Shown: piece by piece, positions 204 to 24,929 of the stretch
Layout of the letters: the number at the start of each line of letters is the position of its first letter
Position numbering within the stretch: the first letter of the stretch is position 1
Assembly (NCBI GenBank): GCA_026709335.1
Contig: JAPOTE010000061.1
Location: 1 to 64,000 of the forward strand
Length of the DNA: 64,000 nucleotides
Direction of reading: 5' to 3'
Origin: Bacteroidota bacterium
GTDB taxonomy: Bacteria > Bacteroidota > Rhodothermia > Rhodothermales > Bin80
The notes under the pieces: model-generated
The model's database searches: none
Told to the model about the DNA's origin: nothing
Seen by the model: the letters and a program-made list of their open reading frames with translations, nothing else
Made by a program: the position numbers and the translations under genes

Positions 204-1592
204 TCAGTTTTTTGTACTGCTATCCAAATACATAATGTACTCTCTGGCGCGCTCCCTATCTCCATTTCTCCGATATAATTCGGCCAAGTACTTGATGAGT
301 GCGCTACGCTCGTTACCATTAAGTGCCTCAATGCGTGATTCTGCCATGTGTGCATACCGAATCGCTGCATCGGGGTTATTTCTCAGAAGAAGAGCTGCAT
401 CAAAAGCGCATCTAGCTATAATATCGGCATCTAATGAGGCGCACTGCAGCAGGTATGCGAGTGCATCTTTCAGGTTTCCGGCTTCACGTTGTTGTTGTGC
501 GAAATTATAAGCCATGATCGCGTAATCGTCTACAATCGCTCGACGCTGTGGATCTTCCGTGACTAAATCTTTCATGAGCTCAATTGCTTCCCCCTCAAAT
601 CCAGATCCATATTTGGCCAGAGCCAATTGATACCTGACATCTGTACGAGCCTCTTCACTCCGAACTTCTTCAAGCAAAATCAGCAATCCATCAACCACTT
701 TTTGCGGGTTCATGGGGGCTTCATTGAGTAATGCATCAAAACGCTTTCGGGCAGCCAGATTCCCATCATCCCAGGCCAACCAAACGCTGTCAGCATGAAT
801 CAGAGCATATTCTGATTCTGTGCGTTGCCAAGTGCGTGCTCTGTTTAATGACTCTCGGGCAAGCGAAACACGATCTGCCTGAATAAACGCACGACTCGCG
901 CGTACATGATATGCAAACAGGGCTGCAGAATCCGGTGCAGACCTGAATCCCATGTCCACATCATCCAGTGCAATCAGTGCAGCGCGCTCCCATAGCGCTC
1001 CCGCAGTCATACCATATGTTTCAGATTGCAGATCTTCCTGGGCAGCGGCTAAAAGTGCAATAAAATCGTGCCGATTCTGATTCCACATCACCAGGCGTTC
1101 TAAAACTCGGAGCCGATTCTGAATTGCCCCCGACTGATGAAAACGCTCAGCAAGCATTTTGTATACTTTGGCCAACCACTGCCTTGCCTCATCATCAAAT
1201 GCGTCGGCTTCAAGTGCTTCCTCAAATTTTTCTGCAGCGGCTTTGAGTAATTCAAGTGACTGCAAACTGTCCGTCTCAGTGAACTGTTCAAGCAACTCCG
1301 CTCCCGTGTTGAATGCCTCAATGGCACGAATTGTATCACGTTCCATGGAGGCCGTAGGAGATTCCATAAAACTGTCTGCAAGATCTGCTAATTCTCGCCC
1401 TTCCTCGGCTAAACGTGCTGCTTTTTCAATGTCTTTTGCAAACGATTCTTCGGCAAGTTGCCAAGCCGTCTGAATACGAATACTATCTACACCCGGGATC
1501 ACTGGCCGGTCTGGTTCTGAAAGTTCCATAATTACCGTCGGAGCACTGCAACCGGCGGTAAGAAAAACAAGCGTCAAAATTGTAGTTCTCAT
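204..1592 (-). CDS. TPR-repeat lipoprotein, last gene of the fimbria/motor operon
   Basis: The 462-residue product starts with a lipoprotein signal peptide whose lipobox ends at Cys15 (LTAGC). The rest is helical and Ala/Glu/Leu-rich with several TPR-like pairs, for example around residues 110-150 and 380-455. It should be anchored by lipid to an envelope membrane and act as a protein-binding scaffold. Its ATG lies in the stop of the preceding TonB-like gene (ATGA, 1589-1592), so the two are translationally coupled. By position it could be the lipoprotein partner of the ExbB/ExbD/TonB-like motor, much as Pal accompanies Tol; that role is inference. TPR lipoprotein is secure, the substrate unknown. 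Confidence 0.75.
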   Translation of the reverse strand: MRTTILTLVFLTAGCSAPTVIMELSEPDRPVIPGVDSIRIQTAWQLAEESFAKDIEKAARLAEEGRELADLADSFMESPTASMERDTIRAIEAFNTGAELLEQFTETDSLQSLELLKAAAEKFEEALEADAFDDEARQWLAKVYKMLAERFHQSGAIQNRLRVLERLVMWNQNRHDFIALLAAAQEDLQSETYGMTAGALWERAALIALDDVDMGFRSAPDSAALFAYHVRASRAFIQADRVSLARESLNRARTWQRTESEYALIHADSVWLAWDDGNLAARKRFDALLNEAPMNPQKVVDGLLILLEEVRSEEARTDVRYQLALAKYGSGFEGEAIELMKDLVTEDPQRRAIVDDYAIMAYNFAQQQREAGNLKDALAYLLQCASLDADIIARCAFDAALLLRNNPDAAIRYAHMAESRIEALNGNERSALIKYLAELYRRNGDRERAREYIMYLDSSTKN

Positions 1593-2530
1593 TGGAGTGT
1601 AAGTCGCATTTCATCCCACCAGGCAAGAAAGATATCATAGTGGAGGACGGCATCTTTACTGGAAGCTGCCCGCTCTTCGGAGGTGATTCCAGTGATCTCA
1701 TTACCGGCCCGCCGCGCAACACCAATCCGGAATCTCCGCCCTTCCCGTTTAAAACTTGGATCAACCACATAATACGTGTCATCTCCACGAACAATCACAA
1801 CATGCAATTCATCAGACGGCATTCGGGCCATCAGATAAATCTCCCATGTTTCACCTTCGTATTCAAGGAATGCTGTTGAAGTCAAATTACCTGGCTGATA
1901 ATCTACATGACGTTTGACCCCGGGAGGAAGCTCTGACCTTGAAATTTGCATCCATTGAATGATTTTTTTGGCTTCTTCCGCTTTAAGGACACGGGATGGT
2001 TGATGGCCAGTGCCCTTGCTGGCTTCTGGAGACTGGTTCGGAGCATTCGATCTTGCCGTCACTTCAGCCGTTGCGAGACGATTCGGTTGACCACTTCCCT
2101 GCAACTCAATTCCCGACGCTTTCCGTAAAGCCATTCCCGAAGAGGTCGGCGAAATTCTCGTGGTCACTTCTGGAGATGGAGCTACGGCATTTCTGTGTCC
2201 AGGTGTCAACTCAATTCCACCCCGCCGGGCATTAAGAGTATTTGTGAATATCCTCTGATTTGGAATGAGCCCTGGATTTTGTGTTTCCTCTAATTTGGGT
2301 ATTCGGGGAGTCCGCCGCCGAACGATTGGCTTCGCTAATGGTTTTGCAACCGGCGAAACAGAACTTGCAGGATCATTGGTGACAGATTCGAAGGATTCAG
2401 CAAATTCCAGATCTTGTAGCTCTGATATGTGGCTTTGCACTTCAATCCAGGCAGCAATCTGCCATAATAGAAGAAGAAGTGCGGCCGTGATCGCACATGC
2501 CAGAAACCGGTCTTGTGTGGAAGCCCTCAT
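1589..2530 (-). CDS. TonB-like periplasm-spanning protein
   Basis: I start this 313-residue protein at the ATG overlapping the stop of the ExbD gene upstream (ATGA, 2527-2530); a longer reading adds 15 residues inside that gene. It has a short cytoplasmic N-terminus, one membrane helix at about residues 10-28, then a long Pro/Thr/Ser/Arg-rich segment to about residue 190 that could cross the periplasm. The compact C-terminal part (about 195-313) is rich in beta strands and aromatics. That is the architecture of TonB or TolA, and ExbB plus two ExbD genes sit directly upstream. I do not see the canonical TonB C-terminal motif, so TonB-like rests on topology and neighbours. Confidence 0.55.
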   Translation of the reverse strand: MRASTQDRFLACAITAALLLLLWQIAAWIEVQSHISELQDLEFAESFESVTNDPASSVSPVAKPLAKPIVRRRTPRIPKLEETQNPGLIPNQRIFTNTLNARRGGIELTPGHRNAVAPSPEVTTRISPTSSGMALRKASGIELQGSGQPNRLATAEVTARSNAPNQSPEASKGTGHQPSRVLKAEEAKKIIQWMQISRSELPPGVKRHVDYQPGNLTSTAFLEYEGETWEIYLMARMPSDELHVVIVRGDDTYYVVDPSFKREGRRFRIGVARRAGNEITGITSEERAASSKDAVLHYDIFLAWWDEMRLTLQ

Positions 2531-2904
2531 GTCTGTATTGGTTCGATCGCACACCGGAGCGATAATGCACTGCAAATATCCAATAGAGTCACTATCTGTT
2601 GCACGGTCGAGTTTTCTTTAGGTGCAAGCAAAAAGCGAATAGATTTCTGGTTTTCCATGCATGCGGCAAGCTCCTCAACTGTTGTTGTCTGACAAAGCAG
2701 TTCTGAATTGGCCAAACGTTTCACGGTTGCATCCCAGTTTTGATTAAATGAAACTCGTGCTACAATGACCTTCTCTGATGCATCGGATTTACTAGGAAGC
2801 GCCACCTGCAGGGTGGGATTCAGTTCTGCCACCGACAAAAATGCAAGCAGCAATAATAGACCAAGGTCAATAAATCGAAGTAAATGTCCACTACTACGCT
2901 TCAT
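2527..2904 (-). CDS. ExbD/TolR-family protein (second copy)
   Basis: The 125-residue product has the ExbD/TolR plan: a short basic N-terminus, one membrane helix at about 10-30, and a periplasmic domain of about 90 residues. The helix carries the family's membrane-embedded Asp (RFIDLGLLLLL, Asp13), the proton-carrying residue in ExbD, TolR and MotB-like stators. It begins at an ATGA overlap with the previous exbD-like gene (2901-2904). The two adjacent ExbD proteins are quite diverged, suggesting distinct roles or a heteromeric stator. Two ExbD paralogs beside one ExbB are common in Bacteroidota. Confidence 0.8.
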   Translation of the reverse strand: MKRSSGHLLRFIDLGLLLLLAFLSVAELNPTLQVALPSKSDASEKVIVARVSFNQNWDATVKRLANSELLCQTTTVEELAACMENQKSIRFLLAPKENSTVQQIVTLLDICSALSLRCAIEPIQT

Positions 2905-3269
2905 GGAGAACTCGCATGTAACTGCAGTACCCTGAATGCTGCCTGTCGATTCTGCTGAGTCACAATGGCGTGGATTTCAAGTAACCTGCCTGCGGGAGCA
3001 TTGGCATCCGCGATGAACTCAATTTCTCCCGCCCATGTATGAGCTATGGACTCCAGCTCTTCCAGCGTAATAGGAGCTCCATCCATCGTAAAAATTGTCC
3101 CGTCAGTGGTAATTTCTATCTGCATTGGGAGTTGAAGCCTCCCTTCTTCTGCGAGTTTGTAGGTAACTGGCGGCTCAGTCCTTGACGTAGTAAAACTGGC
3201 GGTAGCCATCAAACTTAGTAACAGAAGCAGTGTGATATCTACCAATCGCAAAATCAAGGCCCCTCTCAT
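2901..3269 (-). CDS. ExbD/TolR-family protein (first copy)
   Basis: The start chosen is the ATG overlapping the ExbB stop (ATGA, 3266-3269), giving 122 residues; a longer in-frame reading adds 17 residues inside exbB and is unlikely. The N-terminal membrane helix contains the conserved Asp (LRLVDITLLLLL, Asp10), followed by a periplasmic domain of about 85 residues. ExbD works with ExbB to turn proton flow into movement of a TonB-type protein. The gene is part of a tight run exbB-exbD-exbD-tonB-like-TPR lipoprotein. Confidence 0.8.
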   Translation of the reverse strand: MRGALILRLVDITLLLLLSLMATASFTTSRTEPPVTYKLAEEGRLQLPMQIEITTDGTIFTMDGAPITLEELESIAHTWAGEIEFIADANAPAGRLLEIHAIVTQQNRQAAFRVLQLHASSP

Positions 3270-3919
3270 ACGTCTCCCTCTGTAATGGAAAGTATATAAG
3301 ACCGCACCTTCTGAGCCCACATTTGCGCAGATTCAATATACCGACTCACATATCCATGCATGACCGCCTCAAAGAACTCTAGCAGAATGCTGGTAATAAT
3401 TCCCAGGAGTGTTGAGACAACTGCAATAGCAATTCCTGCAAATATAGTTTGTGCATCGCGCGTTCCTGTGGAGAACAGAGCATAAATCCCAACCAATGTG
3501 CCAAGTAGCCCAAGTCCTCCGGCAGTACTGGAACAATAGTTGACAATTCGTTGAGTTCGTTCGTACGCCGCATGGGATGCAGTGGCTATATCGCTGACTT
3601 CCCGACCCATGGCTTCAGGGTTTCTATGAAGCTGTATCAATCCGGACAAAAGCTGTGTATAGAGGCTGTCAGCAGCACGTTTCCGCGCTTCCAGCAATGC
3701 AGAAAGCGTAATGGAGTCCAGGCTTAATTGCTTTAATGGTCGTGCAGCTAAATCATCTCGAATGAGACGTACCATGCGGAGCATCAAAATAATCAAACCA
3801 GCAATCAGAACTGCCAGAATCGGCCACTGAAACCCACCTGCCTGACTGAATAACTCGAGAATGGAAAAGGATTGAACCTCCTGTGGAAAGGAAGAAAAAT
3901 TCTGCAATGTATCTGTCAT
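3266..3919 (-). CDS. ExbB/TolQ/MotA-family proton channel
   Basis: The 217-residue product is of normal ExbB/TolQ length. It has a first membrane helix at about 28-50, a cytoplasmic helical region, and two further helices at about 130-150 and 160-185. The last two contain the Gly-rich GLLGTLVGIYALF and the small-residue stretch AGIAIAVVSTLLG typical of the family. It would form the pentameric channel of a proton-motive-force stator with the two ExbD proteins that follow. It starts 13 bp after the adhesin-like gene, so it is in the same operon as the chaperone-usher genes. Such fimbriae normally need no motor, so the pairing is unexpected. Confidence 0.85.
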   Translation of the reverse strand: MTDTLQNFSSFPQEVQSFSILELFSQAGGFQWPILAVLIAGLIILMLRMVRLIRDDLAARPLKQLSLDSITLSALLEARKRAADSLYTQLLSGLIQLHRNPEAMGREVSDIATASHAAYERTQRIVNYCSSTAGGLGLLGTLVGIYALFSTGTRDAQTIFAGIAIAVVSTLLGIITSILLEFFEAVMHGYVSRYIESAQMWAQKVRSYILSITEGDV

Positions 3920-3932
3920 GATCTATTTGTGA

Positions 3933-4808
3933 TTAATGGAGCGGATCGCATAAAAAAGTTAACGAGATGAGTCCCTCATAATCTGACTCGGGGCTTGTTG
4001 CATAAGTGGTTACTACGCCCCCGAGTCGGAATACAATCTGTTCACCGCCGGTATGAATTCGGCGACTCCCGGATCCTGTAATCAGAGGAAGGTATCTACT
4101 TCCCGAAGCAGCCTTATAGGCAAGTTGGCTGGTAAACCCCACATGTCCATAAGGGGATTGGAGTATATGAGGTGAAGTAACCGTAACCAGCGCGGATTGA
4201 GAGCTGGTAGTCAATGTAAGAGTGGCCACCTGATGGGCAAAGGTTCCAGGGCTTTGGCCATGATTCTCTTGATATTTTCGGAGGCCTGTCTCTGGGTCAA
4301 CTGTTATGATTCCAGCCCTGTTTGCTTTGGCACCCCCAAATTCCAGAGCTCCTGATGAACTTACCGCACAACTTGTCTTCGAAGCAAGAACTTCGTATGT
4401 GACCGGAACAGAAATCGAATGGGTTCCTGTCGGCCCTCGAACGATAAGAGTTACGGATCCTTGATACATTCCCGGAGATGGCAGGGACTGCGTGACTACC
4501 TCGCCGTACACATGCCAGAAAAGCGTGCGCTCAGCCCGAACTCGACACATGCTCGTAGTGGGCTTGTCATGAGAATGATTGCATGAAAGATGTGGAGTCC
4601 ACGGTAGTGTATGGCCACCCATTCTGAGGAACCCTCCCTGTATAGCTGCATCGTACCATGCACCGTATTCCCGTTCAGTGATCATCTCAATCAGTGCAGG
4701 AGTACCGTTTTCGCCCAATAACAATGGACGATCCACCCTGAGTTGGGCCATACAAACATGGATCGGTACATACAGGAGCAGCAATAGAAACAGGGCAACT
4801 CGAGTCAT
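3933..4808 (-). CDS. Two-domain fimbrial adhesin-like subunit with DUF4402-type C-terminal domain
   Basis: This 291-residue secreted protein has a signal peptide (about residues 1-21, hydrophobic core VALFLLLLLYV, cleavage after CMA). An N-terminal domain of about 120 residues resembles nothing I recognise. The C-terminal domain (about 150-291) resembles the three small DUF4402-type subunits of the operon, with EFGGAKANRAGIITVDPETG near its start and a final FRLGG...YEGLISLTF strand pattern. One unique domain plus one pilin-like domain is the usual plan of a fimbrial tip adhesin. The ATG overlaps the usher stop (ATGA, 4805-4808). The tip role is inference. Confidence 0.6.
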   Translation of the reverse strand: MTRVALFLLLLLYVPIHVCMAQLRVDRPLLLGENGTPALIEMITEREYGAWYDAAIQGGFLRMGGHTLPWTPHLSCNHSHDKPTTSMCRVRAERTLFWHVYGEVVTQSLPSPGMYQGSVTLIVRGPTGTHSISVPVTYEVLASKTSCAVSSSGALEFGGAKANRAGIITVDPETGLRKYQENHGQSPGTFAHQVATLTLTTSSQSALVTVTSPHILQSPYGHVGFTSQLAYKAASGSRYLPLITGSGSRRIHTGGEQIVFRLGGVVTTYATSPESDYEGLISLTFLCDPLH

Positions 4809-7051
4809 TCGCTATCCAGATTAATTGTTACAGAAAATGGGCCTGTATCTACCTCAATCATTTTTTCTGCCAGAACATTCTCATTCAGAACATCCATGAC
4901 GGTAAGCATATAGTCTCCCGGATTCACGTGGAATGCAAACCCGCCATCTCGGTACACTTCTGCACTTTTTTTCCGATCCAAATAGACTCGCAGTCGCAGC
5001 GGCGCTCGATCCATGTTAATAATTTTCCCCTTGACTGTAACAAGCCGCTGCATCGGTATCTGGATGATTTTTCTTCGACCAGGGTCCGCTGTAAAGCTGA
5101 ACTCAAAGCCCGTCTCCGGATGTAAAGATGGATCATGAACAGATGCTTCTATGAGTTGGACCTGATAGCGCTGATAGGGCTCCAGATTCGTGGCGTAGAG
5201 TGCACCTGTTTTGAGACGTCTCCATCCACCCTGATAAAGCTGTGCCTCAATATGTGGAAGAATTGCTTCGGAGCCGTCACGGATGCCATTTCCGTTGACA
5301 TCTTCAAAAATTTGAAGTTCAGCTGCACTTTCCTGGCGGTTAGGTGCAGCCAGTTTCACATCACGCCATATGTGAACACTTCCTTGCGCCTGTTGCGAAT
5401 GAGTCATTCCTCGATGATCCTGCCGTCCACGGGCAAAAAAGCTGCCCAGTGCCGATGAGATGTGAATACTGAGGCTACCGATCATGGTCTGATTTGCCGC
5501 ATCCCACCCCATACTGAACGTCATGGACTTGTTTGGAAGCGCCAGCATTCCTTCCAGGCCATACGTCTGATGAATGTATCCATGATCAGCAAAGGCGAGT
5601 AATCGCCCACGTGTCAGAGATCTTCCTGTGGCAAAGCGCCAATAATGATTGACTCTATTATCTACCAATGAGCCACGCAAGCGGTCAACCTCCATACTGA
5701 TTTGCATCAGCAAGCCACTGGGATGATGCAGCCAGAATTCCGGGTGTAGAGACAGGTACCCATAATGGCCAGCAACCTTTGTGTGTGATCCTCTTAACCA
5801 TAGACTGAGTGGCCCCTGATTGACTGATGCTGTTATACTCATATTCAGAGATTGACTGGTTTGAGCGTGGATTCGGGCGTTGACCTGAACGCCGGAGCGC
5901 CACATCTGCAGAGTGGCTTGCCACTTTGAGAACGGAACATGCATCTCGGCGCCAAGCGCCAGAAATGTTACTGGGTTCATTGTGAACCCGGCAATCATAT
6001 CCATGCGACGATATGTACGACTCAGTACACTGTGCAATGACAATCTTTTGCGTAATCCATACCGGAGGTTCAGGGCCTGTTCGTGCTCACGAACTCTTAA
6101 CTGATAGTACATCTTCCCCGGCGGGTTCAGCGAAGAGGGCGTGAGCAGATGATGAGAATCGGAGAGGATGTGTCCGCCCCCCAATGGTCGGGTATACATT
6201 TCCAATTTTGTGGTTCCATACCAGGCGGGGACATTCAATTGATATTTTCCTTCAGCATCGGCCTGTACCTGATCCACAACTTCGCCGCTGATCATGGCCT
6301 GTATGAGTGCATAGGGTGCAGACATTCCGCGAATAGCTCGCACTCGTTGCACTCGCTGTCTGGCTAATGGTATATTGGTGATTAATGCACCTGCGCCTCC
6401 ATTCGCCTCACGGCCAATCTCCACCTGGGTTAGCCATTTTCCGCGGGGCCAGTCGCTTCGATAGGCCCATGCGGAGTAGTTTCCAAGGTCGGCTTCTATG
6501 GTTCCGAGTAATGCACTGCCAGTAAGACGAAGAGATGGATGAACTCCGAATGCGTCCCTGCGAAGTTGCCAATTCACCATTGCACCACCCCAGAAATTGC
6601 GTGTGTGCCCGAAGAGGTGAGGACCTGGCGCTTCAATCCAACTTGCTCGCCTTTCACGAAGCACATCTACATCAAAAGTAGATGCAACCGATGACGCGCT
6701 CAGGTGCAGGCGTTTCTGATCAAAATGCAGTGCAGTACCAAGTCGGCCTAATACATCCGTCAAAAGGATTTTACAGGAATGATCTATGGGGAGGCCGCTA
6801 CATGGAAAGATGTGATGATGATGCGTATCCAGAGCTTCAAAGTTTGCTCCTCTGATCTGTACGGTAAATTGGAGAGCCTGAAAAAATTCTTTGCCATCTA
6901 CCAGAAAAACCTCTCCATCATGCCACGCGCGGATCAATTCCTGCCTGCCAGGCAGCTCCAACAGAAGAGGAACCTCCATCAATACCTGAGCGGTTGCAGT
7001 GCGAAGATTGAAGAGGATGAGCAGAATCAGGGAGAAATACTTCAGGCTCAT
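4805..7051 (-). CDS. Fimbrial usher-like outer-membrane protein
   Basis: The 748-residue protein has a signal peptide (about 1-21). A signature resembling the usher plug region (SGEVVDQVQADAEGKYQLNV, followed by a TRPLGGG turn) sits near residues 255-290. A long stretch of alternating beta strands (about 300-570) looks like a barrel. A C-terminal Ig-like part (about 590-748) contains the calcium-type loop EDVNGNGIRDGSE. Ushers secrete and assemble chaperone-bound pilins. The preceding gene is a PapD-like chaperone and pilin-like genes flank the pair, which strengthens the call. Similarity to FimD/PapC is remote, so it may be a CFA/I-type or novel usher. The ATG overlaps the chaperone stop (7048-7051). 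Confidence 0.6.
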   Translation of the reverse strand: MSLKYFSLILLILFNLRTATAQVLMEVPLLLELPGRQELIRAWHDGEVFLVDGKEFFQALQFTVQIRGANFEALDTHHHHIFPCSGLPIDHSCKILLTDVLGRLGTALHFDQKRLHLSASSVASTFDVDVLRERRASWIEAPGPHLFGHTRNFWGGAMVNWQLRRDAFGVHPSLRLTGSALLGTIEADLGNYSAWAYRSDWPRGKWLTQVEIGREANGGAGALITNIPLARQRVQRVRAIRGMSAPYALIQAMISGEVVDQVQADAEGKYQLNVPAWYGTTKLEMYTRPLGGGHILSDSHHLLTPSSLNPPGKMYYQLRVREHEQALNLRYGLRKRLSLHSVLSRTYRRMDMIAGFTMNPVTFLALGAEMHVPFSKWQATLQMWRSGVQVNARIHAQTSQSLNMSITASVNQGPLSLWLRGSHTKVAGHYGYLSLHPEFWLHHPSGLLMQISMEVDRLRGSLVDNRVNHYWRFATGRSLTRGRLLAFADHGYIHQTYGLEGMLALPNKSMTFSMGWDAANQTMIGSLSIHISSALGSFFARGRQDHRGMTHSQQAQGSVHIWRDVKLAAPNRQESAAELQIFEDVNGNGIRDGSEAILPHIEAQLYQGGWRRLKTGALYATNLEPYQRYQVQLIEASVHDPSLHPETGFEFSFTADPGRRKIIQIPMQRLVTVKGKIINMDRAPLRLRVYLDRKKSAEVYRDGGFAFHVNPGDYMLTVMDVLNENVLAEKMIEVDTGPFSVTINLDSE

Positions 7052-7821
7052 TTCTCGATCAGATGAATAGGCTCCGGAATTTCAAGTTGGCGTTGGATCG
7101 CCTGCCCCAAACCTGTATACTCCGTATCAAATTCCAGCCGTAAAGAGCTGGTCAGCGGAGTTTGAGATATCGGAATCCGTATTTTTCGGGTCGTATAAAC
7201 AGCAGATTCGGCCCTGCCAAGTTGCACATTGCCATGAAATACGCGAACCCCTCCAAGAAAAGGCCACTGACTGTGATTTTCCAGATACAAATGCAATTCT
7301 CCGGATGTACGATCGAGGATGCGAGCACTCAGGATCGGGCTTCCTCTGCCTTGAAGATAAATGAGTGGAGCAATCAGATTGTAGACAATGCTGAGGCCGC
7401 TGGCAACGGCGGGAACCTGACCATTTACGATCGCGCCACGCTCCTGCATTGCAAAATGCATGAGTGTGATGTGAGCACCTTCGGGAACGGAACGGATACG
7501 ATAACGGACTGTCTGTTCACCCCCCGCCGGAAGAATGCATCGATCCGGAAAAAATGTCAGATACGGAACTAAATCTCTCAACTTGCCCGCCTCCCCTAGT
7601 ACAATACCGGTCGTTGAGTCAGATGAGGCAATGACCCCGTAGTTCGAACGGATGGTGATTTCTACTCCCTCGGTACCCTCGTTGTAGAGGGTGAATGCCC
7701 CATAAGGCTTTTCATCTGTAACCAGAGCATAGGCCGGCGTGACACTAAGTGCCGCCTGAGCGTGCACCTGCTTTGAGAGGCCAACACCGGCGATCAATAA
7801 CAATGGCAAGATTTTCGTCAT
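7048..7821 (-). CDS. PapD-like periplasmic fimbrial chaperone
   Basis: I start at the ATG four bases after the preceding stop, which gives 257 residues with a clean signal peptide (MTKILPLLLIAGVGL, cleavage near VHA-QA). The mature protein has two Ig-like domains. The first (about 23-140) carries family hallmarks: SVTPAYALV at the N-terminus, an FTLYNEG strand, and a PAGGEQTVRYRIR segment matching the pG-Q-VR pattern of pili chaperones. The second domain (about 145-250) has the shorter beta-sandwich pattern. It should hold the DUF4402-like subunits in the periplasm and hand them to the adjacent usher. A longer upstream start would overlap the neighbouring gene and spoil the signal peptide. 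Confidence 0.75.
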   Translation of the reverse strand: MTKILPLLLIAGVGLSKQVHAQAALSVTPAYALVTDEKPYGAFTLYNEGTEGVEITIRSNYGVIASSDSTTGIVLGEAGKLRDLVPYLTFFPDRCILPAGGEQTVRYRIRSVPEGAHITLMHFAMQERGAIVNGQVPAVASGLSIVYNLIAPLIYLQGRGSPILSARILDRTSGELHLYLENHSQWPFLGGVRVFHGNVQLGRAESAVYTTRKIRIPISQTPLTSSLRLEFDTEYTGLGQAIQRQLEIPEPIHLIEK

Positions 7822-7825
7822 CTTT

Positions 7826-8344
7826 TTATAGTGGGGTAATTCGAACTGCAAGTTGTCCGGTATAGTGACCCTGGGCCGCACCAAACAGATCTATGGTTCC
7901 TCCAAATCGAAGGGTTGCACATCCATCATCACCCAGCACTCCGGCAGCCCCTTCCCTGAGAGAGCTGAGTGTGAATGCTCCCTGGTTACATCCTTTGCTC
8001 TGCGCCCAGGATGGTGTAAACCGAACCTCATGACTCCCGCCGGCTTGTTTGAGTGGAATTACGTGGTCAATGCTCACCAGAAACCCTGTTTCTGCTGGTC
8101 CATGCACGGTCACTTCTCCCATTGCAAATGCCCCTGCGGCTTTGTGATTGGCCAGCCCGGTTGCCGGATCAAGGATCACCGCACCTGCATCTGCGCGCTG
8201 TCTGGCAAAATCCAATTGGCTACTGCTCACACTGACAGTCAAAACTCTGGGGAGTACTTCCAGCTGAATCTGCATCGTACCACTCGTTTGTGCGTGAGCG
8301 GTCATGGAAAACAACACAAGGCCACAAAATGCGAACCGAGTCAT
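7826..8344 (-). CDS. DUF4402-type pilin-like subunit
   Basis: Starting at the ATG one base after the preceding stop gives 172 residues with a signal peptide ending at AHA-QT. The mature part matches the DUF4402 pattern: an early SQLDFARQRA strand, VILDPATG, a middle HGPAETGFLVSID strand, and a terminal LRFGGTID...GHYTGQLAVRI strand pair. Proteins of this type are secreted beta-sandwich subunits often found with chaperone-usher genes. It is the third of three consecutive paralogs and lies just upstream of the chaperone. The exact fibre role is inferred. Confidence 0.7.
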   Translation of the reverse strand: MTRFAFCGLVLFSMTAHAQTSGTMQIQLEVLPRVLTVSVSSSQLDFARQRADAGAVILDPATGLANHKAAGAFAMGEVTVHGPAETGFLVSIDHVIPLKQAGGSHEVRFTPSWAQSKGCNQGAFTLSSLREGAAGVLGDDGCATLRFGGTIDLFGAAQGHYTGQLAVRITPL

Positions 8345-8345
8345 A

Positions 8346-8891: not shown

Positions 8892-8896
8892 AGTTG

Positions 8897-10546: not shown

Positions 10547-10939
10547 AGTAATTCATCTGTTTGTTATGTGTTTATACGCTTAACCCTTATTGCGAATCGA
10601 TGATTGATCTACGGTATTGACAAGAAGCCTTGAAAGCAAGCCCCCGGAAGTATATAATGGCCTAAATGGGATAGACGATAGAATTGAGAAGGTGGGAGTA
10701 TGGAGATCATTTAGAACATAGAATAAACCTGAAAAATCAGCAAAGCCCCCACAGAAGATATATAGAGCATGTTTTAGCAACAGGCTACCTTTCTGGGCAG
10801 AACTCATTTATATGGATCAGGCAAGAACACTTGCGTTCAAATCAAATCTGAGATTTTCTCTTCTTGCCCATATCGTAACAAGGACAGTATTTCCAAAACT
10901 TCATTGATGTGTACCACAGGAAACAAAAACCTGTATCTC
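10547..10939. promoter_or_regulatory. Divergent promoter region between the fimbria/motor and T4SS operons
   Basis: About 390 bp separate the two divergent operons. No convincing gene is present; a 75-residue minus-strand reading (10580-10807) has unconvincing composition. The stretch must contain the promoters of both operons. A TATAAT-like string (10654-10659) and a TTGACA-like string (near 10617) are visible, but their spacing is too long for one sigma-70 promoter. The two-component system at 23.5-24.9 kb is the obvious candidate regulator; I see no clear direct-repeat binding site. Confidence 0.45.
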
Positions 10940-15738: not shown

Positions 15739-15740
15739 CA

Positions 15741-16545: not shown

Positions 16546-16581
16546 TACTGGAATCAACTCGTATGAGCTATTCCATGTTGG

Positions 16582-19500
16582 TTATTTCACCAGTGTCATG
16601 CGACCGGTTTTCACGTAGCGGCTCTCCGCTCCGGTTGCAATCATCCGGTAGAGATACGTGCCACTGGAAAGGTTGATTGCGTTGAGCTCAATGCTGCGAT
16701 TGGCTCCCGCTGCAAACTCTTTCGCCGGTAGCGCCATCACTTCACGTCCCAGCATGTCCACGATCTGTACCGTCACCTGTGCAGATTCCGGAAGATCAAA
16801 CTGGATCCGGGTAGATGGATTGAACGGATTCGGATAGTTCCCATGCAACGTAAACTCGGTCGGAATCTCGGTGATTTCGGATTCGGTGCCGGTCACGACA
16901 TCGGCGTTCACTCTGTTTCCGTTCACATCCACGACATAGAGATCAAGATTGTTGGCAGCCCTGGAACCCGACAGGTTCGCAATCAGTGTCTGCCCTTGAT
17001 ACCCGGACAGGTTCAGATCAAACACCGCCACTTTGTTATTTCCAGAGACTGCCTCAATCCGATAGTAATCAGGATCCATCTGGATGTAGTTGCTTGCCTC
17101 ATCAAATAAGAAGTTGCTCGCAAGCAGTCTTGTCGGATTCGCCGTACGCGGATCATCCAGAATATTGATCGTCTGCAATCTCACGCTTCCCAAGTCAGCA
17201 GATCCATGGACCAGAAGTACATCTATCTTCGCAGAGGCCAGTGATGTCAATCGGGTTTCCAGAATCTTGGCCGAAACCTGTACTCCGGCACCATGCGCAA
17301 TTACCGCGTAGCTACGATCATTCACCAAAGATCCCAAAGAAACCTCAATGGCTTGATCCGCAGGTGCGCCCACTGGCTGAAGAGTGGTTGCATGCTCTCC
17401 GGCGGCCACGTGCAGATACCCAGTGGCGCTCTGGAAGGTCAATCCATTTGCAATCCCAACACCGTCCAATGACAGGTTAACCGGGGCCGGAAGTTGCGCG
17501 TTGTGCACAAACTGTACCCGAGAACGTCCACTGGCCAGAGATTCCTGATGAATCGGGTTCTCAATCTGATTGGCCGCGATCCCGAAGATGGAACAGCTTC
17601 CGAGATCAATCCCTTCCTGTGTGAGGTTGAACACCCCATTCACATAGTCATTGACGGCGAAGGTGGCCGGGTTCACTGCGCCTGCAACATCATAGAGTCC
17701 GGCCTGCTGCGGATTCTCCCAATCACAATTCCACTGCACAATGCGGAGGCCTTTGGGATCAAACACATTATTGATTCCGGCCGCTGCAACCCGAAGGTTC
17801 ACATTGTCCTCTAGCTCGTCTTCGCCCAAATCTATCTTCCAGAAGATATCGGAATAGACATCCAGCGTCAGGAGTCCGCCATTATGTCCCTGAACCAACT
17901 GGCTCTCCCATTGTGGCGTGACCCCCGTTGGAATGCTCGTCAAGGAAACCTCTACCTCGTGCATCTCCGCAGGATCCACCAGTAATTGCAGAATGGCCGG
18001 GCGGTAGTAGGAAACGTCTTCTTTCATCGTGCCCAGTGGGAAGAGATATCCACCCGTGACTTCGCCGCCACCCGCATTCCCATCAGTGATATGGCGAGTC
18101 AGCATGGCGGAGATATGGGACTGACGGGAGCCTCGCAGAATGGACGCACTGCAAGCCTGATCGTCGTCCGGGCCACAGGTCTTATCTCCAGGTCGTGCGG
18201 CGGAGCGGCGAACCAGGTTCTCTTCAATCTTCGTGTTTTTGATCACCCAGGAGGAATCGCCACTGATAGTACCTTTTTTCAAGGTCAGGGTGCTGCTTGC
18301 AGTTTGAGATACATCGCTTGCAAGCATGATGCCCGCACCGTTGATCGTCACTTCCCGCAGATCAACCTTGCCAGTGGACACCGATTGCTTCTCCTTGCCA
18401 GAGAACTCGATATGTGCGTTGAGGGAATCTCCGGCCAACCCGAAATTAAAGCCACCCTTCAGGTTCAACTTCGTATCTGCGGATGATCCAAACCTTTGCG
18501 CCGTTCCTTCACCAGACACCGTAAAATCTCCCTCGACCGTCAAGTTGGTAAACTTACTTAAATAGGTCGCTCCTTCGGGGTGATTCATATCCGCTCCACC
18601 TGTCTTCTGGGTGGTCTTCTGAGAAAAACCTCCTCCGATGGTTGCGGATCTTCTGGCATCCGCGGTGCCACCACGGGACGAGAACCCGCCCGTTCCACTA
18701 ATCGCAAGATCTTTCTTGAATTCCAGTGTTGGAGTCTCCTGGTACAAGCTCGCAGAACTGACCGCCACATTCTTGTTGATCGTGACTTTCTTTTTCGCGT
18801 CTGCGACGAAGTCCGCGCCACCATTGGAGACACTCACGGAGTCAATTGTTACGTTTTGACCTGATCTGGCCACGACATATACACGTCCTTCATAATTGTC
18901 TGACCCACTCACTTTCGGATTTTTGGTCCCGTCAAGAACGATCGTGTCAAAGCTTTCGCCGGTCAGAACGGTCCGTTTGCTTCCTTTCGGAATCGTAACC
19001 TTGCCCTTTACCATTCCTACACTAGTCAATTTTACCAAGGGTCTGCCGGATGTCCGCGTCGCAGAGGTCGTATAATCGTAGGGGGGGCCTCCTAATCCAT
19101 TTTTCTTGAATGTGTATTCTGGACCGAGTTGGAGCGCCCCCATTCCCACGTCAATTACACTCTTAGCACTGACCGTAACGGCTGCAGTGCCATCCTGATA
19201 GTCTCCCTTGAGCTCCCCAGTTGAAATATTCCAATCATTTCCCAGCACACGCAGATTTCCACCGTCAGTTATGATTTTGGCCGTATGCGTCTTCACTGTT
19301 CCGACATCTACTGGGCCATAAACGATCACGTTGTTCCCATTGGAGTGAAGCTCACCGTTTTCGAGCCTAAGATACCTTTCGTCATCAGCAATTCTCCTGA
19401 ACTTGCCAGATGCTCGGAACCTCCCCACCGTCAGATCCGCACCTTTGACATGAAAGTGTCCCTTGCTGATCGTAAGATGTCCAGGAATGTCTGCGGGAGT

Positions 19501-21705
19501 TTCACTGTTATAGATTATGACAGCTTTTGAATCATTAATCACAACATCTCGTGCGCCAAACCACTCTGGGCCCACGGTGCGCTCATTCGCATTTACATAC
19601 CTCAGTGTGTAGCCATCATTATCCGTTCCGATACTTCCAGGCTCATTTACGTCTTTTTCCATATAGCCATCCCGCACGGTAAGGGTTCCATGGACGGAGA
19701 TTGTTGAATCTTTGTCTGTACCTGCCTCACGGAGTAACAGAGTTCCACTGCAAAGCCCCAAATTCTCCGCATCTGTCTTTTCATCGAGTCTCAACTCAGC
19801 CCGCTCGTGGACCTGAATGGCGATGTTCGGTTCTTCCCTAGTGCTCCCACTACCTTTCCCAAGAGCAGCACGGGCGATGATGTCGGTAACAGTGCTGGCA
19901 TAGGTAAGCTTTGTGATAGTGGACGTCGGATCCAGTGTACCATCGAGTCCATCACCCTGAAGAATAAGTCCCTCGGTCACGGTCACATCTTCATTTGCTT
20001 CGAGTTCCCCTCCATCACCAACATGCAGAGTGGTGACCGTTAGATCTCCGTTGATTACATCCAGTTCATCAAGAACGACTAATGCATCCAGAGTCAAACC
20101 GCCAGAAATCACATGATCTTTGCCGTCCGTTAGTGTAATGCGGGTTCCATTCGTCAGGGAAATATCCTTCGTCCCCGTACACAGCCCATCTGCCCGAGAT
20201 TCCGCAGGCTCGGCCATGGTGATTGTCGCGTTATTAGCGTAAATATCACCATCCAAGTTCAGGTTATGGGCACTCGACCTAGTGGAGCTAAGTCGTCGAC
20301 CCTCCAAATAAACTCTTTCCTCATCTTCTTCAACATTTTCTATGATTAAATCTCCATCAATGTGAGATGTCCATTCTTCATGCCCCCGAGAGGGCGGATC
20401 AGGAGCGATGAACGATGCGTTGGGATAGCATGCTTTAATGTTGCTGGAGCGTATGTCCAAATCTCCCTCAATCGTCGTACTCTTGCCGCTGAACAAAACA
20501 GTTCCAATAGAAGGAAGTGGAGAGCCCCCAGCACATTCCGATCTGAATACCGTATAACCATCTCCATCGTCAATCCTTGCGCGACCAAAGCTATCATCAT
20601 CCAGTGGAGTCGCCCCGTCATCTAGAATGACACTGCCTTTGATTGTAGTAGCTGCTCCCAAGAAGTGTATTCTAGCATCATTCCACTGCTGCACATCGCC
20701 ATCAATTTTCACATTACTTCCGAATCTGATGTCCGTTGTGATGGAGTCCTGTGTAGCACTTCTTGCTTCGCTGCCGAGTTCAGTGATGCTTCCTGCGGCG
20801 ACAAGATTGCCAATTTCAGGCACGTTCACACACACATTGCCAGCGGCAATGAAGCGGAGTTCAGCTTCGATGCTTCCACGCCCGGTGATCGAGACGCAGT
20901 CCAAATGATTTGGAACACGACCATTATCATTAAGGTCGTACTCCTCAGGAGTATGAAAGAATTCATCGGCAGAGATCGGGGGATTTGCGCCAGGATCTCC
21001 TGCATCTCCCCGCCCGTCATCGTTATTTATGTGTGCGATCCAGATATTTCCTGTCCCATCTATTTTGCCATTGACGGTGAGAATACCTTTTTTATCGCTG
21101 GCAGTCTCTCCTTTCTTCAGGGGGACTCGTAGATCTGCGGGTTTGTCTACATTTCCAACTTTTGTCCCGATGGTGAGGGTATGTCCGGCATTGACGGTCA
21201 ATTCATTCACAACAAGGATTTGTCCATCCTCATTCCCCTCACTATACACCAACACATCCCCTGTGGTCGTGATCTTATCAATGGTTGCCCCCTGATTCGG
21301 TGCCGTATCGGTAAGTACGATCTCCGTGAACTCGATGGTGGTTGATGGGTGGGTCGTAAGGCTGTTCTCTCCACCGAATTCTACTGCTCCCCTAAAATTC
21401 AGGGTACCTCGGACAGGCTCAGTTCCCCTTCGCGCATAGGTGCCGAGGGTGATACTATTCGTCTCCAGATTAAAGTCTTCGGAAATGGTCGTGGTTCCTC
21501 CTGCCCGCCTCACCTGGATCAGGAGCGTACCGTCATTAGCCGCTGTAATACCGGCAGTTAGCGAACAGGGATTGTCTGAAATCGAACAGTCGCCTCCAGT
21601 GCCACCTACAGCAGCATAAGAATAAGTTGTTTGTCCTTGTGCACTTTGTATAGTAAGTAGTAGGAGGGGGATGGTGAGTAGGGTGAATTTGAGTCGTTGT
21701 TTCAT
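16582..21705 (-). CDS. Giant T9SS-sorted surface protein with DUF4397-like domain
   Basis: The 1707-residue protein has a signal peptide (about 1-25). About 1300 residues are repetitive and beta-rich, full of short motifs such as GDLTV, GTLTV and DGDIY, suggesting a parallel beta-helix stalk. A DUF4397-like module (about 1393-1600, starting SRVQFVHNAQLPAPVNL) follows. The last 90 residues are a T9SS type A sorting domain (GNYPNPFNPSTRI, then SGTYLYRMI). It should be exported by Sec, crossed by T9SS and attached to the cell surface. It is the largest gene here and lies between the two T4SS blocks. An adhesin or fibre role is plausible; no catalytic motif is visible. Confidence 0.8.
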   Translation of the reverse strand: MKQRLKFTLLTIPLLLLTIQSAQGQTTYSYAAVGGTGGDCSISDNPCSLTAGITAANDGTLLIQVRRAGGTTTISEDFNLETNSITLGTYARRGTEPVRGTLNFRGAVEFGGENSLTTHPSTTIEFTEIVLTDTAPNQGATIDKITTTGDVLVYSEGNEDGQILVVNELTVNAGHTLTIGTKVGNVDKPADLRVPLKKGETASDKKGILTVNGKIDGTGNIWIAHINNDDGRGDAGDPGANPPISADEFFHTPEEYDLNDNGRVPNHLDCVSITGRGSIEAELRFIAAGNVCVNVPEIGNLVAAGSITELGSEARSATQDSITTDIRFGSNVKIDGDVQQWNDARIHFLGAATTIKGSVILDDGATPLDDDSFGRARIDDGDGYTVFRSECAGGSPLPSIGTVLFSGKSTTIEGDLDIRSSNIKACYPNASFIAPDPPSRGHEEWTSHIDGDLIIENVEEDEERVYLEGRRLSSTRSSAHNLNLDGDIYANNATITMAEPAESRADGLCTGTKDISLTNGTRITLTDGKDHVISGGLTLDALVVLDELDVINGDLTVTTLHVGDGGELEANEDVTVTEGLILQGDGLDGTLDPTSTITKLTYASTVTDIIARAALGKGSGSTREEPNIAIQVHERAELRLDEKTDAENLGLCSGTLLLREAGTDKDSTISVHGTLTVRDGYMEKDVNEPGSIGTDNDGYTLRYVNANERTVGPEWFGARDVVINDSKAVIIYNSETPADIPGHLTISKGHFHVKGADLTVGRFRASGKFRRIADDERYLRLENGELHSNGNNVIVYGPVDVGTVKTHTAKIITDGGNLRVLGNDWNISTGELKGDYQDGTAAVTVSAKSVIDVGMGALQLGPEYTFKKNGLGGPPYDYTTSATRTSGRPLVKLTSVGMVKGKVTIPKGSKRTVLTGESFDTIVLDGTKNPKVSGSDNYEGRVYVVARSGQNVTIDSVSVSNGGADFVADAKKKVTINKNVAVSSASLYQETPTLEFKKDLAISGTGGFSSRGGTADARRSATIGGGFSQKTTQKTGGADMNHPEGATYLSKFTNLTVEGDFTVSGEGTAQRFGSSADTKLNLKGGFNFGLAGDSLNAHIEFSGKEKQSVSTGKVDLREVTINGAGIMLASDVSQTASSTLTLKKGTISGDSSWVIKNTKIEENLVRRSAARPGDKTCGPDDDQACSASILRGSRQSHISAMLTRHITDGNAGGGEVTGGYLFPLGTMKEDVSYYRPAILQLLVDPAEMHEVEVSLTSIPTGVTPQWESQLVQGHNGGLLTLDVYSDIFWKIDLGEDELEDNVNLRVAAAGINNVFDPKGLRIVQWNCDWENPQQAGLYDVAGAVNPATFAVNDYVNGVFNLTQEGIDLGSCSIFGIAANQIENPIHQESLASGRSRVQFVHNAQLPAPVNLSLDGVGIANGLTFQSATGYLHVAAGEHATTLQPVGAPADQAIEVSLGSLVNDRSYAVIAHGAGVQVSAKILETRLTSLASAKIDVLLVHGSADLGSVRLQTINILDDPRTANPTRLLASNFLFDEASNYIQMDPDYYRIEAVSGNNKVAVFDLNLSGYQGQTLIANLSGSRAANNLDLYVVDVNGNRVNADVVTGTESEITEIPTEFTLHGNYPNPFNPSTRIQFDLPESAQVTVQIVDMLGREVMALPAKEFAAGANRSIELNAINLSSGTYLYRMIATGAESRYVKTGRMTLVK

Positions 21706-22041: not shown

Positions 22042-23004
22042 TTACTTATTTGGCCTTGGGGATAGAGATTCCATCGTAAAACCGCTTGGAGTCAATCCGA
22101 TAACCTTTTCAATCTGACGAACTCGGCGTGCTTTGCCAAACCCTGCAATTACGACAACTATGTGCACGGCTTGTTGGACAAGGTGCCGTTGATCAATTCC
22201 CCGTGCACCTTCACGAGCCAGATCACTCAATCTTTGCAAGGCCTTGATGACATTTTCACCATGAATTGTTGCGCATCCGCCGGAATGTCCGGTGATCCAT
22301 GCATCCAGAAGATCTTTGGCGGAGCCATCACGCACCTCCCCAACGATAATCCGATTTGGAGTGGCACGCAAACTGAACTTGAGTAGTTCGGTCATTCCAA
22401 ATTGAGCTGTAGTCTGAAGTTGGAGTGTATCCATTGCGTGAACTATGAGTTCTGATGTATCCTCGAGAATAATCAGGCGCTCATCAGGAAAAGTATCAAC
22501 AATGGCCTTTAGGATCGCGTTGCAAAGAGTGGTTTTTCCGCTTCCTGTAGGCCCTGCGATCAAGATATTCTGACGTGATTTAATGGCTGCGGTAATAGTG
22601 GAGAACTCATCTTTCGTTAGCCTTCCTGTATGTACATAATCTTCCAGAGTGGGGATCTGGAGGCATGGTTTGCGGATATTGAATGCCGGGCCAGAAGTGA
22701 GCGGAGGAATGAATCCCTGAATCCGGCATTTTCCAAGTTCCTTTTGGGCGACTGCGGCCGCCAAGGAAGGATGATCTCGGTCAAAACGGGTTGAAGTAAT
22801 TGAAGCGATCATGCGAAGAAAGGCTTCAGCATTTTGCGAGAGTAATGTGATAGAGGTAGAGATTCTCTTTCCTGAAGTGGTAATTGCACGCACGCGAAGA
22901 TCAGGGTTGAGGTATAGCTCTTCAATATCCGGGCTCTGCAGAAGTGATAGAAACTCTGCACTGAGATAATGACGAATCAAGGCACTAAGGCGCTCCGAAT
23001 TCAT
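22042..23004 (-). CDS. virB11: VirB11/TrbB-type T4SS ATPase
   Basis: The 320-residue protein is a complete secretion ATPase of the VirB11/PulE superfamily. It has an N-terminal domain (about 1-125), Walker A GPTGSGKTT (151-159), an Asp box LIILEDTSE (177-185), Walker B RIIVGEVRD (218-226) and a His box GHSGGCATIH (239-248). It would form a hexamer on the cytoplasmic face and alternate with VirB4 in pilus assembly or transfer. It lies apart from the main T4SS operon, downstream of the TraF-like gene with a 20-bp overlap, and 336 bp separate it from the giant surface-protein gene. Confidence 0.92.
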   Translation of the reverse strand: MNSERLSALIRHYLSAEFLSLLQSPDIEELYLNPDLRVRAITTSGKRISTSITLLSQNAEAFLRMIASITSTRFDRDHPSLAAAVAQKELGKCRIQGFIPPLTSGPAFNIRKPCLQIPTLEDYVHTGRLTKDEFSTITAAIKSRQNILIAGPTGSGKTTLCNAILKAIVDTFPDERLIILEDTSELIVHAMDTLQLQTTAQFGMTELLKFSLRATPNRIIVGEVRDGSAKDLLDAWITGHSGGCATIHGENVIKALQRLSDLAREGARGIDQRHLVQQAVHIVVVIAGFGKARRVRQIEKVIGLTPSGFTMESLSPRPNK

Positions 23005-23539
23005 AACTTGTCAGCGTATAATAGGGTGGTGCTCCACAAGGGACTGGGCCATAATATCTACTGTCATAACTGAGCTTGCTGTGCGTGCTGAGCAAAAAAC
23101 ATTCGCCGGGTGAGAGAATGTGGACTCCTATGGCATTCGGTAGCCTTCTGCCTCTGCGGTCAAATGCATATACAGGAGCGTCAAAAGCTCCGTATCCTGC
23201 AACCCGGATTTTATCTTCCAATACGGTTACGGTATCTCCTTGCAGAGCGATCACCGGTTTTCCAATTCGGGTTGAGCCACCAGGGCAGACACCTCGGCGC
23301 AGATAACCACGCTGAATGGCCAGTTGAGTTAGCGTATCAGGAAGACATGTGCGAAGAATGTCTCCATGCTCCAGGGTCCGCTTCTTCGTTGTGCGGTAAA
23401 AGCCAAGTGGGAGAGATGTTGATGTATTCACAAAAAGAGGCAGGCTTGTTCGGTTCACAGGCAACTGATGAACCCCGATTGCAAGAATGCAGAAAGTACC
23501 AGTCACGAGAACCCCCAGCCATCGCAGTTTGAGCATCAT
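22985..23539 (-). CDS. traF: TraF-like S26 family signal/pilin peptidase
   Basis: The 184-residue product has an N-terminal membrane helix (about 7-24) and the catalytic layout of TraF/LepB. The Ser42 box reads TSLPLGFYR, close to the family pattern S-hydrophobic-P-x-G-hydrophobic-Y. Lys94 sits in RIGKPVIALQGDTV. A later acidic-box region reads FLLSTHSKLSYDSRYYGPV. In RP4, TraF trims and cyclises the TrbC pilin, so this enzyme could mature the VirB2-like pilin at 11 kb. It comes 8 bp after the response regulator gene, putting pilin processing in the same transcript as the two-component system. Confidence 0.85.
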   Translation of the reverse strand: MMLKLRWLGVLVTGTFCILAIGVHQLPVNRTSLPLFVNTSTSLPLGFYRTTKKRTLEHGDILRTCLPDTLTQLAIQRGYLRRGVCPGGSTRIGKPVIALQGDTVTVLEDKIRVAGYGAFDAPVYAFDRRGRRLPNAIGVHILSPGECFLLSTHSKLSYDSRYYGPVPCGAPPYYTLTSYEFGAP

Positions 23540-23547
23540 AAAATGAT

Positions 23548-24276
23548 TTATTCCTCTATAAGCGTGAATTCATTCAGCCGATAACCAACCCCGTGAACCT
23601 TCAGAATATGTTGAGGATTTAGCGGATCTTCATCCAGTTTGCATCGGAGTGCATACGCGTGACGGTCAATGGTACGTGTTGGCAGATCATGGGGAATTTT
23701 CAGGACTCGTACATTGAACTCGGCCCTGGAAACCGCATGCCCCTTCCGAAAGGCTAGATGACGCAGGACCTTCCACTCCAACGGAGTGAGATGCACAGGC
23801 TCGCCTTCTTTTTGTGCAGTATGCGTTTCAAAATCACAAAAGGTTTTCCCGACTTGAATTTTTTTGGGCAGGTTGCCGCCGCGCTGCACGCGCCGACAAA
23901 GTGCTTTTGCCCGGATCATCAATTCATGTGCATTGAAAGGCTTCCCCATATAATCGTCTGCACCTGCTTCAAGGCCTCGCACGCGATCTCTCACGGAATC
24001 GCTCCCCGAAACCATAATCACAGGGGTGTGGCATCCAAACTCCCGCATCCGCTGCACGAGAGAAACTCCGTCCAGACCTGGCATGGTCACATCCAGAATA
24101 GCGACATCCAGAAAATCTTCGGATTGCATGAAGGATGCAGCATCATGCCCATTGTCTGTAATGGTGACTTGTGCGCCCTCTTTTTCAAAGACACGCCTGA
24201 TGGCTCTGGCAGTTGCATTGTCGTCTTCGGCAACAAGTACTTTGGAAAAGGTTTCCGGCATAGATGTATAGATCAT
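23548..24276 (-). CDS. OmpR/PhoB-family response regulator
   Basis: The 242-residue protein has a receiver domain (about 10-125) with acidic pair Glu17/Asp18, phospho-acceptor Asp62 (AILDVTMPGLDG) and the Lys of YMGKPF. A winged-helix DNA-binding domain of the OmpR type follows (about 140-235, HLTPLEWKVLRHLAF). The ATG overlaps the kinase stop (ATGA, 24273-24276), so the two form a pair. It most likely controls the T4SS/fimbria genes around it, because traF and virB11 follow directly, but no binding site was recognised. A few residues precede the receiver, and a start a little downstream is possible. Confidence 0.93.
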   Translation of the reverse strand: MIYTSMPETFSKVLVAEDDNATARAIRRVFEKEGAQVTITDNGHDAASFMQSEDFLDVAILDVTMPGLDGVSLVQRMREFGCHTPVIMVSGSDSVRDRVRGLEAGADDYMGKPFNAHELMIRAKALCRRVQRGGNLPKKIQVGKTFCDFETHTAQKEGEPVHLTPLEWKVLRHLAFRKGHAVSRAEFNVRVLKIPHDLPTRTIDRHAYALRCKLDEDPLNPQHILKVHGVGYRLNEFTLIEE

Positions 24277-24929
24277 GGTAATTCAACAAATATGCTTTGT
24301 GGAAGAATGATGCGGATAACGGTTCCCACTCCAACGGTACTGGCAACTTCAATGTATCCGCCATGCGCATGAACAATCTCCTGTGCAATAGCAAGCCCCA
24401 TTCCGTTGCCGGGAACCGTTAAGTTCCCCCGAAACTGAGGTTTGAAAATGTAGGGGAGTTGATTGGGTTGGATCCCGTCCCCTCGATCACGTATGCGGAT
24501 CTGTATCCCACCTGACTGGAGCTCTGCAGCAATCACGATCAGAGTCGGTTGACTGTAGGCAATGGAGTTATCAAGTAAATTCGTCAGCACACGCCCCAGC
24601 GCAGGGCCGTCTCCCCAGACAGGAGGAATGAGGTTGTCTATATTAACCAGAAATGTATACTCCGGATGGAGTTTCTGATATATGGATGCTGTATCTTGAA
24701 GCAGGGATATGAGGTCTATCTGATCGTGTCCTTCCGGTCTCGTATTCTGTTCAAGAATACTGCGCGTAATATGTACGAGATGGTTGATTTGATCAGCAAT
24801 CACCTCGTGACAAATCTGACGCTCAGGATCGTCAAATTCCATCGTACGGAGCAGATCATTGTAGAGTGCAATAGCATTGAGAGGGGTTTTTATATCGTGT
24901 GATAGACTGTTGATGTGTAAATGCGTCAT
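24273..24929 (-). CDS. Minimal cytoplasmic histidine kinase without a sensor domain
   Basis: This 218-residue protein consists only of a HisKA domain and a HATPase domain. The phospho-acceptor is His11 (LSHDIKTPLNAI), followed by the N box (NLLDNSIAYS), G1 box (DRGDGIQ) and G2 box (GNGMGLAIAQE). There is no membrane helix and no sensory domain, so the signal must come through another protein or the kinase is soluble. The start codon overlaps the stop of a 72-residue open frame upstream, but that frame does not look like a protein. The kinase core looks intact. Confidence 0.88.
   Translation of the reverse strand: MTHLHINSLSHDIKTPLNAIALYNDLLRTMEFDDPERQICHEVIADQINHLVHITRSILEQNTRPEGHDQIDLISLLQDTASIYQKLHPEYTFLVNIDNLIPPVWGDGPALGRVLTNLLDNSIAYSQPTLIVIAAELQSGGIQIRIRDRGDGIQPNQLPYIFKPQFRGNLTVPGNGMGLAIAQEIVHAHGGYIEVASTVGVGTVIRIILPQSIFVELP

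Follow-up and report, generated by a model that had tools for sequence, protein, structure and literature searches.

Chaperone-usher fimbriae are described as passive fibres that are assembled without outside energy. The AglRQS-Glt system of Myxococcus includes one ExbB-type and two ExbD-type proteins, the bitopic, proline-rich and TonB-like protein GltG, and TPR proteins (PMC3169522), and a review of motors of the 5:2 type makes no mention of ushers (PMC9389320). No description of an usher paired with a proton motor was found in the literature searched, which left out most subscription papers and all preprints, and nothing relevant was returned for ExbB with ushers, FliG with ushers or a sponge type IV secretion system (T4SS) in Rhodothermales. 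Here we analyze a stretch of 64,000 bases (the window; bases 1-64000 of the 85.6 kb contig C116) from a Rhodothermales metagenome-assembled genome (MAG) of 2.8 Mb in 125 contigs. It carries the genes of an usher-type fimbria and of an ExbB/ExbD-type channel in a single string, next to genes of a conjugation T4SS. The bins of the host family (bin80, RHO, CAR, Plut) appear to come from sponge metagenomes, and the family to be sponge-associated.

Results

Thirteen open frames (204-10546) form one co-directional string on the minus strand with intergenic gaps of -59 to +13 bp throughout, in the order hyp166, hyp225, SU1, SU2, SU3, chaperone-like gene, usher, SU4, ExbB, ExbD1, ExbD2, coupling protein and TPR lipoprotein. 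The contig ends about 200 bases beyond this string, and at its other side virB2 is divergent from it, with 357 bp between them. A first-pass annotation of the stretch had described divergent, tightly packed operons; the genes it named are all present as open frames where it placed them, most with Pfam support, and it had passed over two conserved genes, hyp225 (9385-10062) and hyp166 (10046-10546). The host family was sampled with 16 MAGs from six genera, 14 of which have a close usher and 14 a VirB4 homologue. The 13-gene string recurs, whole or partial, in 14 genomes, and this recurrence argues that the gene set is not due to chance. ExbB lies beside the usher at all 16 loci of the usher subfamily found in the window and at all 10 loci of a second subfamily, i.e., at 26 of 26 loci in two different gene orders (linkage counts use longest-frame gene calls, by which short genes may be missed).

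The ExbB protein (3266-3919, minus strand, as are all genes of the string) belongs to the MotA/TolQ/ExbB family (PF01618, 9e-13); besides its gene, just a single PF01618 gene was found in the host genome. ExbD1 (2901-3320) and ExbD2 (2527-2904) match the ExbD Pfam family below its cut-off (3e-5 and 1.5e-3, respectively), and the transmembrane channel Asp is invariant in 18 of 18 ExbD1 and 12 of 12 ExbD2 proteins. The string thus holds what characterizes an ExbB/ExbD-type proton channel, namely a PF01618 protein together with an ExbD bearing the transmembrane Asp. The adjoining gene (1589-2575) encodes a bitopic protein of 328 aa, recognized by its layout and its AlphaFold2 (AF2) model and here called the coupling protein, with an N-terminal transmembrane helix, a long disordered linker and a C-terminal alpha+beta domain; residues 199-327 mostly have a pLDDT (predicted local distance difference test) >90. 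The name TonB-like, which this protein had been given before, does not hold: it falls into no Pfam or NCBIfam family and has no TonB or TolA domain, and the AF2 model of its C-terminal domain matched no solved fold in the PDB. CapZ-like PDB matches of the model were weak (TM-score of about 0.12) and were discarded as noise. The coupling protein is transducer-like by layout, yet not a member of the TonB/TolA family. The last gene of the string (204-1592) encodes a lipoprotein of 462 aa with weak TPR Pfam matches and, as read by eye, a signal peptide with an LTAGCS lipobox.

The outer-membrane usher (4805-7051, 748 aa) was assigned by fold match and alignment. Its AF2 model has a mean pLDDT of 73 and comprises a barrel, a plug region and two C-terminal domains; in a Foldseek comparison with the PDB it matches FimD (3rfz, E 8.2e-23) and PapC (2vqi, 1.2e-11), and the predicted fold is thus of the FimD/PapC type, in agreement with the usher-like barrel of the first-pass annotation. 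Profile searches gave no Pfam, NCBIfam or PDB-sequence match, and because sequence family searches yielded nothing useful the usher is identified solely by its predicted fold. Directly upstream, with a 4-bp overlap, lies the gene of a chaperone-like periplasmic protein (7048-7884), which is conserved in the alignment, likewise has no Pfam, NCBIfam or PDB-sequence match, and owes its name to gene context and an earlier reading of motifs. The pilin-like subunits SU1 (8897-9394), SU2 (8346-8906) and SU3 (7826-8401) match the DUF4402 family of Pfam (3e-5, 2.3e-7 and 0.014, respectively). Four such subunits had been counted, but SU4 (3933-4808), a large secreted subunit that is missing from some related loci and possibly forms the tip or adhesin, gave only a weak SCPU match in Pfam. 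The two hyp proteins, conserved in the alignment, are secreted (hyp225) and membrane-anchored (hyp166).

The motor genes were found in three configurations. In configuration A, to which the usher string of 14 genomes belongs, the usher and the Exb set occur together, with a T4SS in most genomes. In configuration B the Exb set accompanies a complete T4SS in the absence of an usher; the full set is seen in G133 (contig C9), where it lies directly downstream of the relaxase and divergent from the complete T4SS, and where usher, chaperone and hyp225 are lacking. A second example, G135 (contig C65), has ExbB, ExbD1 and a trace of ExbD2 only, because the contig ends there. Configuration C consists of 10 loci from the host family and from a sister family, f15. 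Here the second usher subfamily (22-26% identity across the usher alignment) is combined with a differently ordered Exb set, and the string contains no VirB genes. Two f15 loci were read; that of G243 has the complete set, on an adjoining stretch, and that of G240 is cut by the stretch read. The TPR lipoprotein is a conserved neighbour in all three configurations, hyp225 tracks the usher (A and C, not B), and hyp166 tracks the T4SS (A and B, not C). Independent occurrence of the fimbria and T4SS blocks had been named beforehand as a sign against a single system; usher and motor were seen without T4SS genes in the second subfamily, and motor and T4SS without usher in G133. In contig C9 of this last genome ubiquitin-like, E2-like and JAB/E1-like genes, recognized by eye only, lie beside a second T4SS (28341-31902, L136).

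The T4SS genes divergent from the string are on the plus strand and encode the VirB2/TrbC pilin (10904-11272; PF04956, 9.5e-12), VirB3 (11272-11601; PF05101, 1.2e-4), the VirB4 ATPase (11598-14024; PF19044, 1.6e-13), VirB5 (14031-14774; the "T4SS" Pfam family PF07996, 1.5e-4), VirB6 (14836-15738; VirB6/TrbL, PF04610, 5.9e-20) and VirB8 (15741-16403; PF04335, 8.5e-27). VirB4 likely starts at 11598 and not at 11430, and seeming in-frame stops in its relatives are probably an artefact of an over-extended query start. The VirB11, TraF and two-component system reported close by were confirmed by Pfam and TIGR02771: on the minus strand lie the VirB11 ATPase (T2SSE, 22042-23004; PF00437, 4.4e-30), the conjugative signal peptidase TraF (22985-23539; TIGR02771 (TraF_Ti), 2.1e-32, above the NCBIfam cut-off, and the S26 peptidase Pfam family), an OmpR-type response regulator (23548-24276; PF00072/PF00486) and a histidine kinase (24273-24929; PF00512/PF02518), in an order that is retained in G134, G137 and G140. 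On contig C11 the host genome has VirB9, VirB10, VirD4, c30 and a MOBP relaxase, and in relatives VirB9, VirB10, VirD4 and the relaxase, whose identities were confirmed by Pfam on the relatives' proteins, lie beside the T4SS. The host genome therefore holds VirB2-6, 8-11, VirD4, TraF and the relaxase, split over several blocks. VirB4, VirB6, VirB8 and VirB11 of the window supply the inner-membrane set of a conjugation T4SS, and by sequence VirB2-8 and VirB11/TraF form one half of a complete MOBP system that is separate from the fimbria.

The distance between the two systems varies. VirB9, VirB10 and VirD4 run co-directionally into the fimbria string in four genomes, where VirD4 either precedes the string by 28-65 bp (G142, G146 and G147) or overlaps it (G144); VirB10 of G147 was found by genome search. 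A single contig of G140 holds the fimbria string, VirD4-VirB10-VirB9-relaxase and the block from histidine kinase to VirB11. By manual count, T4SS genes lie on the same contig within about 15 kb of the fimbria string in 10 of the 14 genomes, and three of the remaining four have the string on short contigs (9-24 kb). The VirB2-8 operon frequently lies 7-30 kb away or on a different contig. In G142 and G145 a long distance separates the relaxase from the VirB genes, and in G143 and G146 they are on different contigs. The relaxase genes of G146 and G143 adjoin the same oxidoreductase-type chromosomal genes (L129 2295-3371; L135 8848-9855).

UvrC, VirB4 and usher have correlated pairwise distances (Mantel r 0.94-0.97, p 2e-4). 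The three trees largely agree, apart from small differences at forks with weak support and in how G142, G144 and G145 are ordered, and this agreement indicates that T4SS and fimbria genes were inherited together and argues against a recently mobile element. A recently acquired integrative and conjugative element is accordingly not supported: VirB4 and usher follow UvrC in trees and distances, and in G143 and G146 the chromosomal surroundings of the relaxase match.

Profiles of the wide usher superfamily match ushers in many Bacteroidota. Of 14 evaluable loci outside the class, none had a channel gene within 7 kb of the usher. Among the other families of the class, MotA, a FliF-FliG fusion, a TPR lipoprotein and MotB lie directly downstream of the usher in 11 of 43 evaluable loci, and at least a FliF-type gene does so in 14 of the 43. 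Genome searches with comparison of coordinates placed the fusion (FliG PDB profile, 4.7e-26; FliF M-ring, 5e-4) beside ushers in 19 genomes of the class, and the MotB Asp is retained in 10 of 10. The operon of usher, FliF-FliG, TPR lipoprotein, MotA and MotB (OmpA, sometimes SPOR) is tight (L153 7073-15035, L154, L164, L166, L184, L188, L191, L194, L197, L199 and L249). The ExbB and MotA channel lineages are far apart in a tree that carries a long-branch warning, which favours separate recruitment; derivation of the host-family ExbB from the MotA of sister families found no support, the channels being very distant. Clusters of FliF-FliG, a protein of about 370-400 aa, TPR lipoprotein, MotA and MotB also stand alone, without an usher (L247, starting at 7847 and reaching the MotB gene at 12212; L248, between the MotB gene at 4970 and the FliFG gene at 8317). 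An usher of 1163 aa with a SPOR domain near its C-terminus (L151 7322-10813) has no motor genes nearby, and the same is true of most other long ushers of the class.

Other genes of the window include one for a T9SS-tailed (type IX secretion system) protein of 1707 aa between VirB8 and VirB11 (16582-21705, minus strand). A family of very large T9SS-tailed proteins is found repeatedly at the borders of T4SS and fimbria blocks in the host and several relatives (e.g., L123 694-6366, plus strand), and its members may mark points of rearrangement. Further along are three FG-GAP/UnbV-ASPIC proteins in a row, then a TPR protein and a hydrolase (26483-34153), and a TonB-dependent receptor gene followed by a gene for an HmuY-domain protein (51251-54272).

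Discussion

We consider it rather probable, though well short of assured, that the string encodes a chaperone-usher fimbria coupled to the proton motive force and lying inside a resident conjugation region. Motor genes that always lie beside the usher of a fibre thought to be energy-free suggest a powered version of that fibre. ExbB and the two ExbD proteins would form a proton channel of the 5:2 type, the bitopic coupling protein would pass its motion across the periplasm, and the TPR lipoprotein at the outer membrane would receive this motion and in turn act on usher or fibre, so that the fibre would be moved, by rotation or retraction, or the usher gated. We infer this physical coupling, and with it power and rotation, from the gene set. 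Since T4SS and fimbria genes were inherited together, the fimbria would most likely serve attachment during mating or host contact.

Several points weigh against this proposal. Classical ushers work without energy, no family model confirms the chaperone, and the evidence comes from MAGs and sequence alone. With a coupling protein that lacks a TonB fold, contact with the usher or the lipoprotein is a guess, and since the motor set also accompanies a T4SS where no usher is present, that system could be its partner. There are also uneven gene contents: G141 has the fimbria string and lacks VirB4, VirB10 and relaxase, G136 lacks VirB4 and relaxase, and G138 and G135 have VirB4 without a close usher, absences which may reflect binning loss or real loss.

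The alternatives are not mutually exclusive, and our estimates of them should be read accordingly. The one that deserves most attention, and that we regard as possible although we would not expect it, is that fimbria-motor unit and T4SS share an island as neighbours with no functional relation, a view which denies the link to the T4SS and not that between usher and motor. It agrees with the frequent separation of the VirB2-8 operon and with the usual lack of T4SS genes in the second usher subfamily, but the short VirD4-fimbria junctions of four genomes (65 bp at most), the linkage over no more than about 15 kb in 10 of 14 and the position of the T4SS-tracking hyp166 as first gene of the fimbria string speak against it. 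An unlikely explanation is that Exb set, coupling protein and TPR lipoprotein energize the T4SS, e.g., in pilus dynamics or mating-pair contact, with the fimbria genes as passengers. The motor set of G133 with its complete T4SS, and ExbB and ExbD1 in the same place in G135, would fit, whereas the second usher subfamily has kept the whole set in a string that lacks VirB genes, and relatives in the usher superfamily have MotAB/FliFG instead.

More doubtful still is a reading of the motor set as an ordinary Tol-Pal or TonB energizer placed there by chance. The general make-up of TolQ-TolR-TolA-CpoB is similar and just one other PF01618 gene was found in the genome; against this stand the usher linkage at every one of the 26 loci in two shuffled gene orders and a string in which Pfam finds no TolA, TonB or Pal domain and no TonB-dependent receptor. 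We give least credence to the single apparatus of the first-pass annotation, in which the usher forms the outer-membrane part of a T4SS without a core of its own. Co-directional T4SS core and fimbria genes in four genomes and their co-inheritance speak for it, yet usher-motor sets exist without a T4SS, and VirB9, VirB10, VirD4 and relaxase are present in the same genome and beside the T4SS in relatives, so that this T4SS has no need of an usher as its outer-membrane part. The block of the window thus belongs to a conjugation system whose remainder is on C11, the very finding that had been named as speaking against a single apparatus. Of that proposal the proton motor coupled to the usher survives, and a looser link between T4SS and fimbria remains, in co-inheritance, the common gene string of four genomes and proximity in 10 of 14.

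For the class as a whole we suggest, more tentatively and with less than even confidence, that ushers pair with ion-driven rotary motors which rotate or retract a chaperone-usher fibre anchored externally; the motor would be of the ExbB/ExbD type here, together with conjugation in sponge symbionts, and would consist of a FliF-FliG rotor and a MotA/MotB stator elsewhere. A pairing of ushers with proton-channel motors of two unrelated types in one class would add a powered form of fimbria and raises the testable question of how the motor acts on usher or fibre. If true, this would be a separate kind of powered surface appendage, and a motorized adhesin would lie next to a conjugation system that is passed on vertically, in an uncultured family represented by genome bins.

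Comparison with known systems

The locus shares with the chaperone-usher pathway (FimD/PapC) the usher fold and an operon with a chaperone-like gene and several small pilin-like genes, but its usher falls outside the Pfam and NCBIfam usher models and its operon adds a proton-channel motor, a coupling protein and a TPR lipoprotein. The T4SS genes resemble a mating-pair formation (MPF)-type MOBP conjugation T4SS with TraF (TrbC/VirB2 pilin) in that VirB2-6, 8-11, VirD4, TraF and relaxase are all in the genome, and differ in their arrangement in several blocks, their vertical inheritance throughout the family and the adjoining motor-fimbria operon. FliF-FliG, MotA and MotB of the flagellar motor recur downstream of ushers of this superfamily elsewhere in the class, in operons where genes for flagellar export or a filament were not seen; this is not the version of the window. 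With Tol-Pal and ExbBD-TonB the window has in common an ExbB/ExbD channel with a conserved Asp, a bitopic transducer and a TPR protein, but it has two ExbD paralogues, a transducer of no known fold and a dedicated usher linkage. The closest working analogy is the AglRQS-Glt gliding and sporulation core (PMC3169522), which, compared by composition only, likewise combines ExbB with two ExbD proteins, a bitopic output protein and TPR; it differs in having no usher or chaperone, and the coupling protein of the window in having no TonB Pfam or FHA domain.

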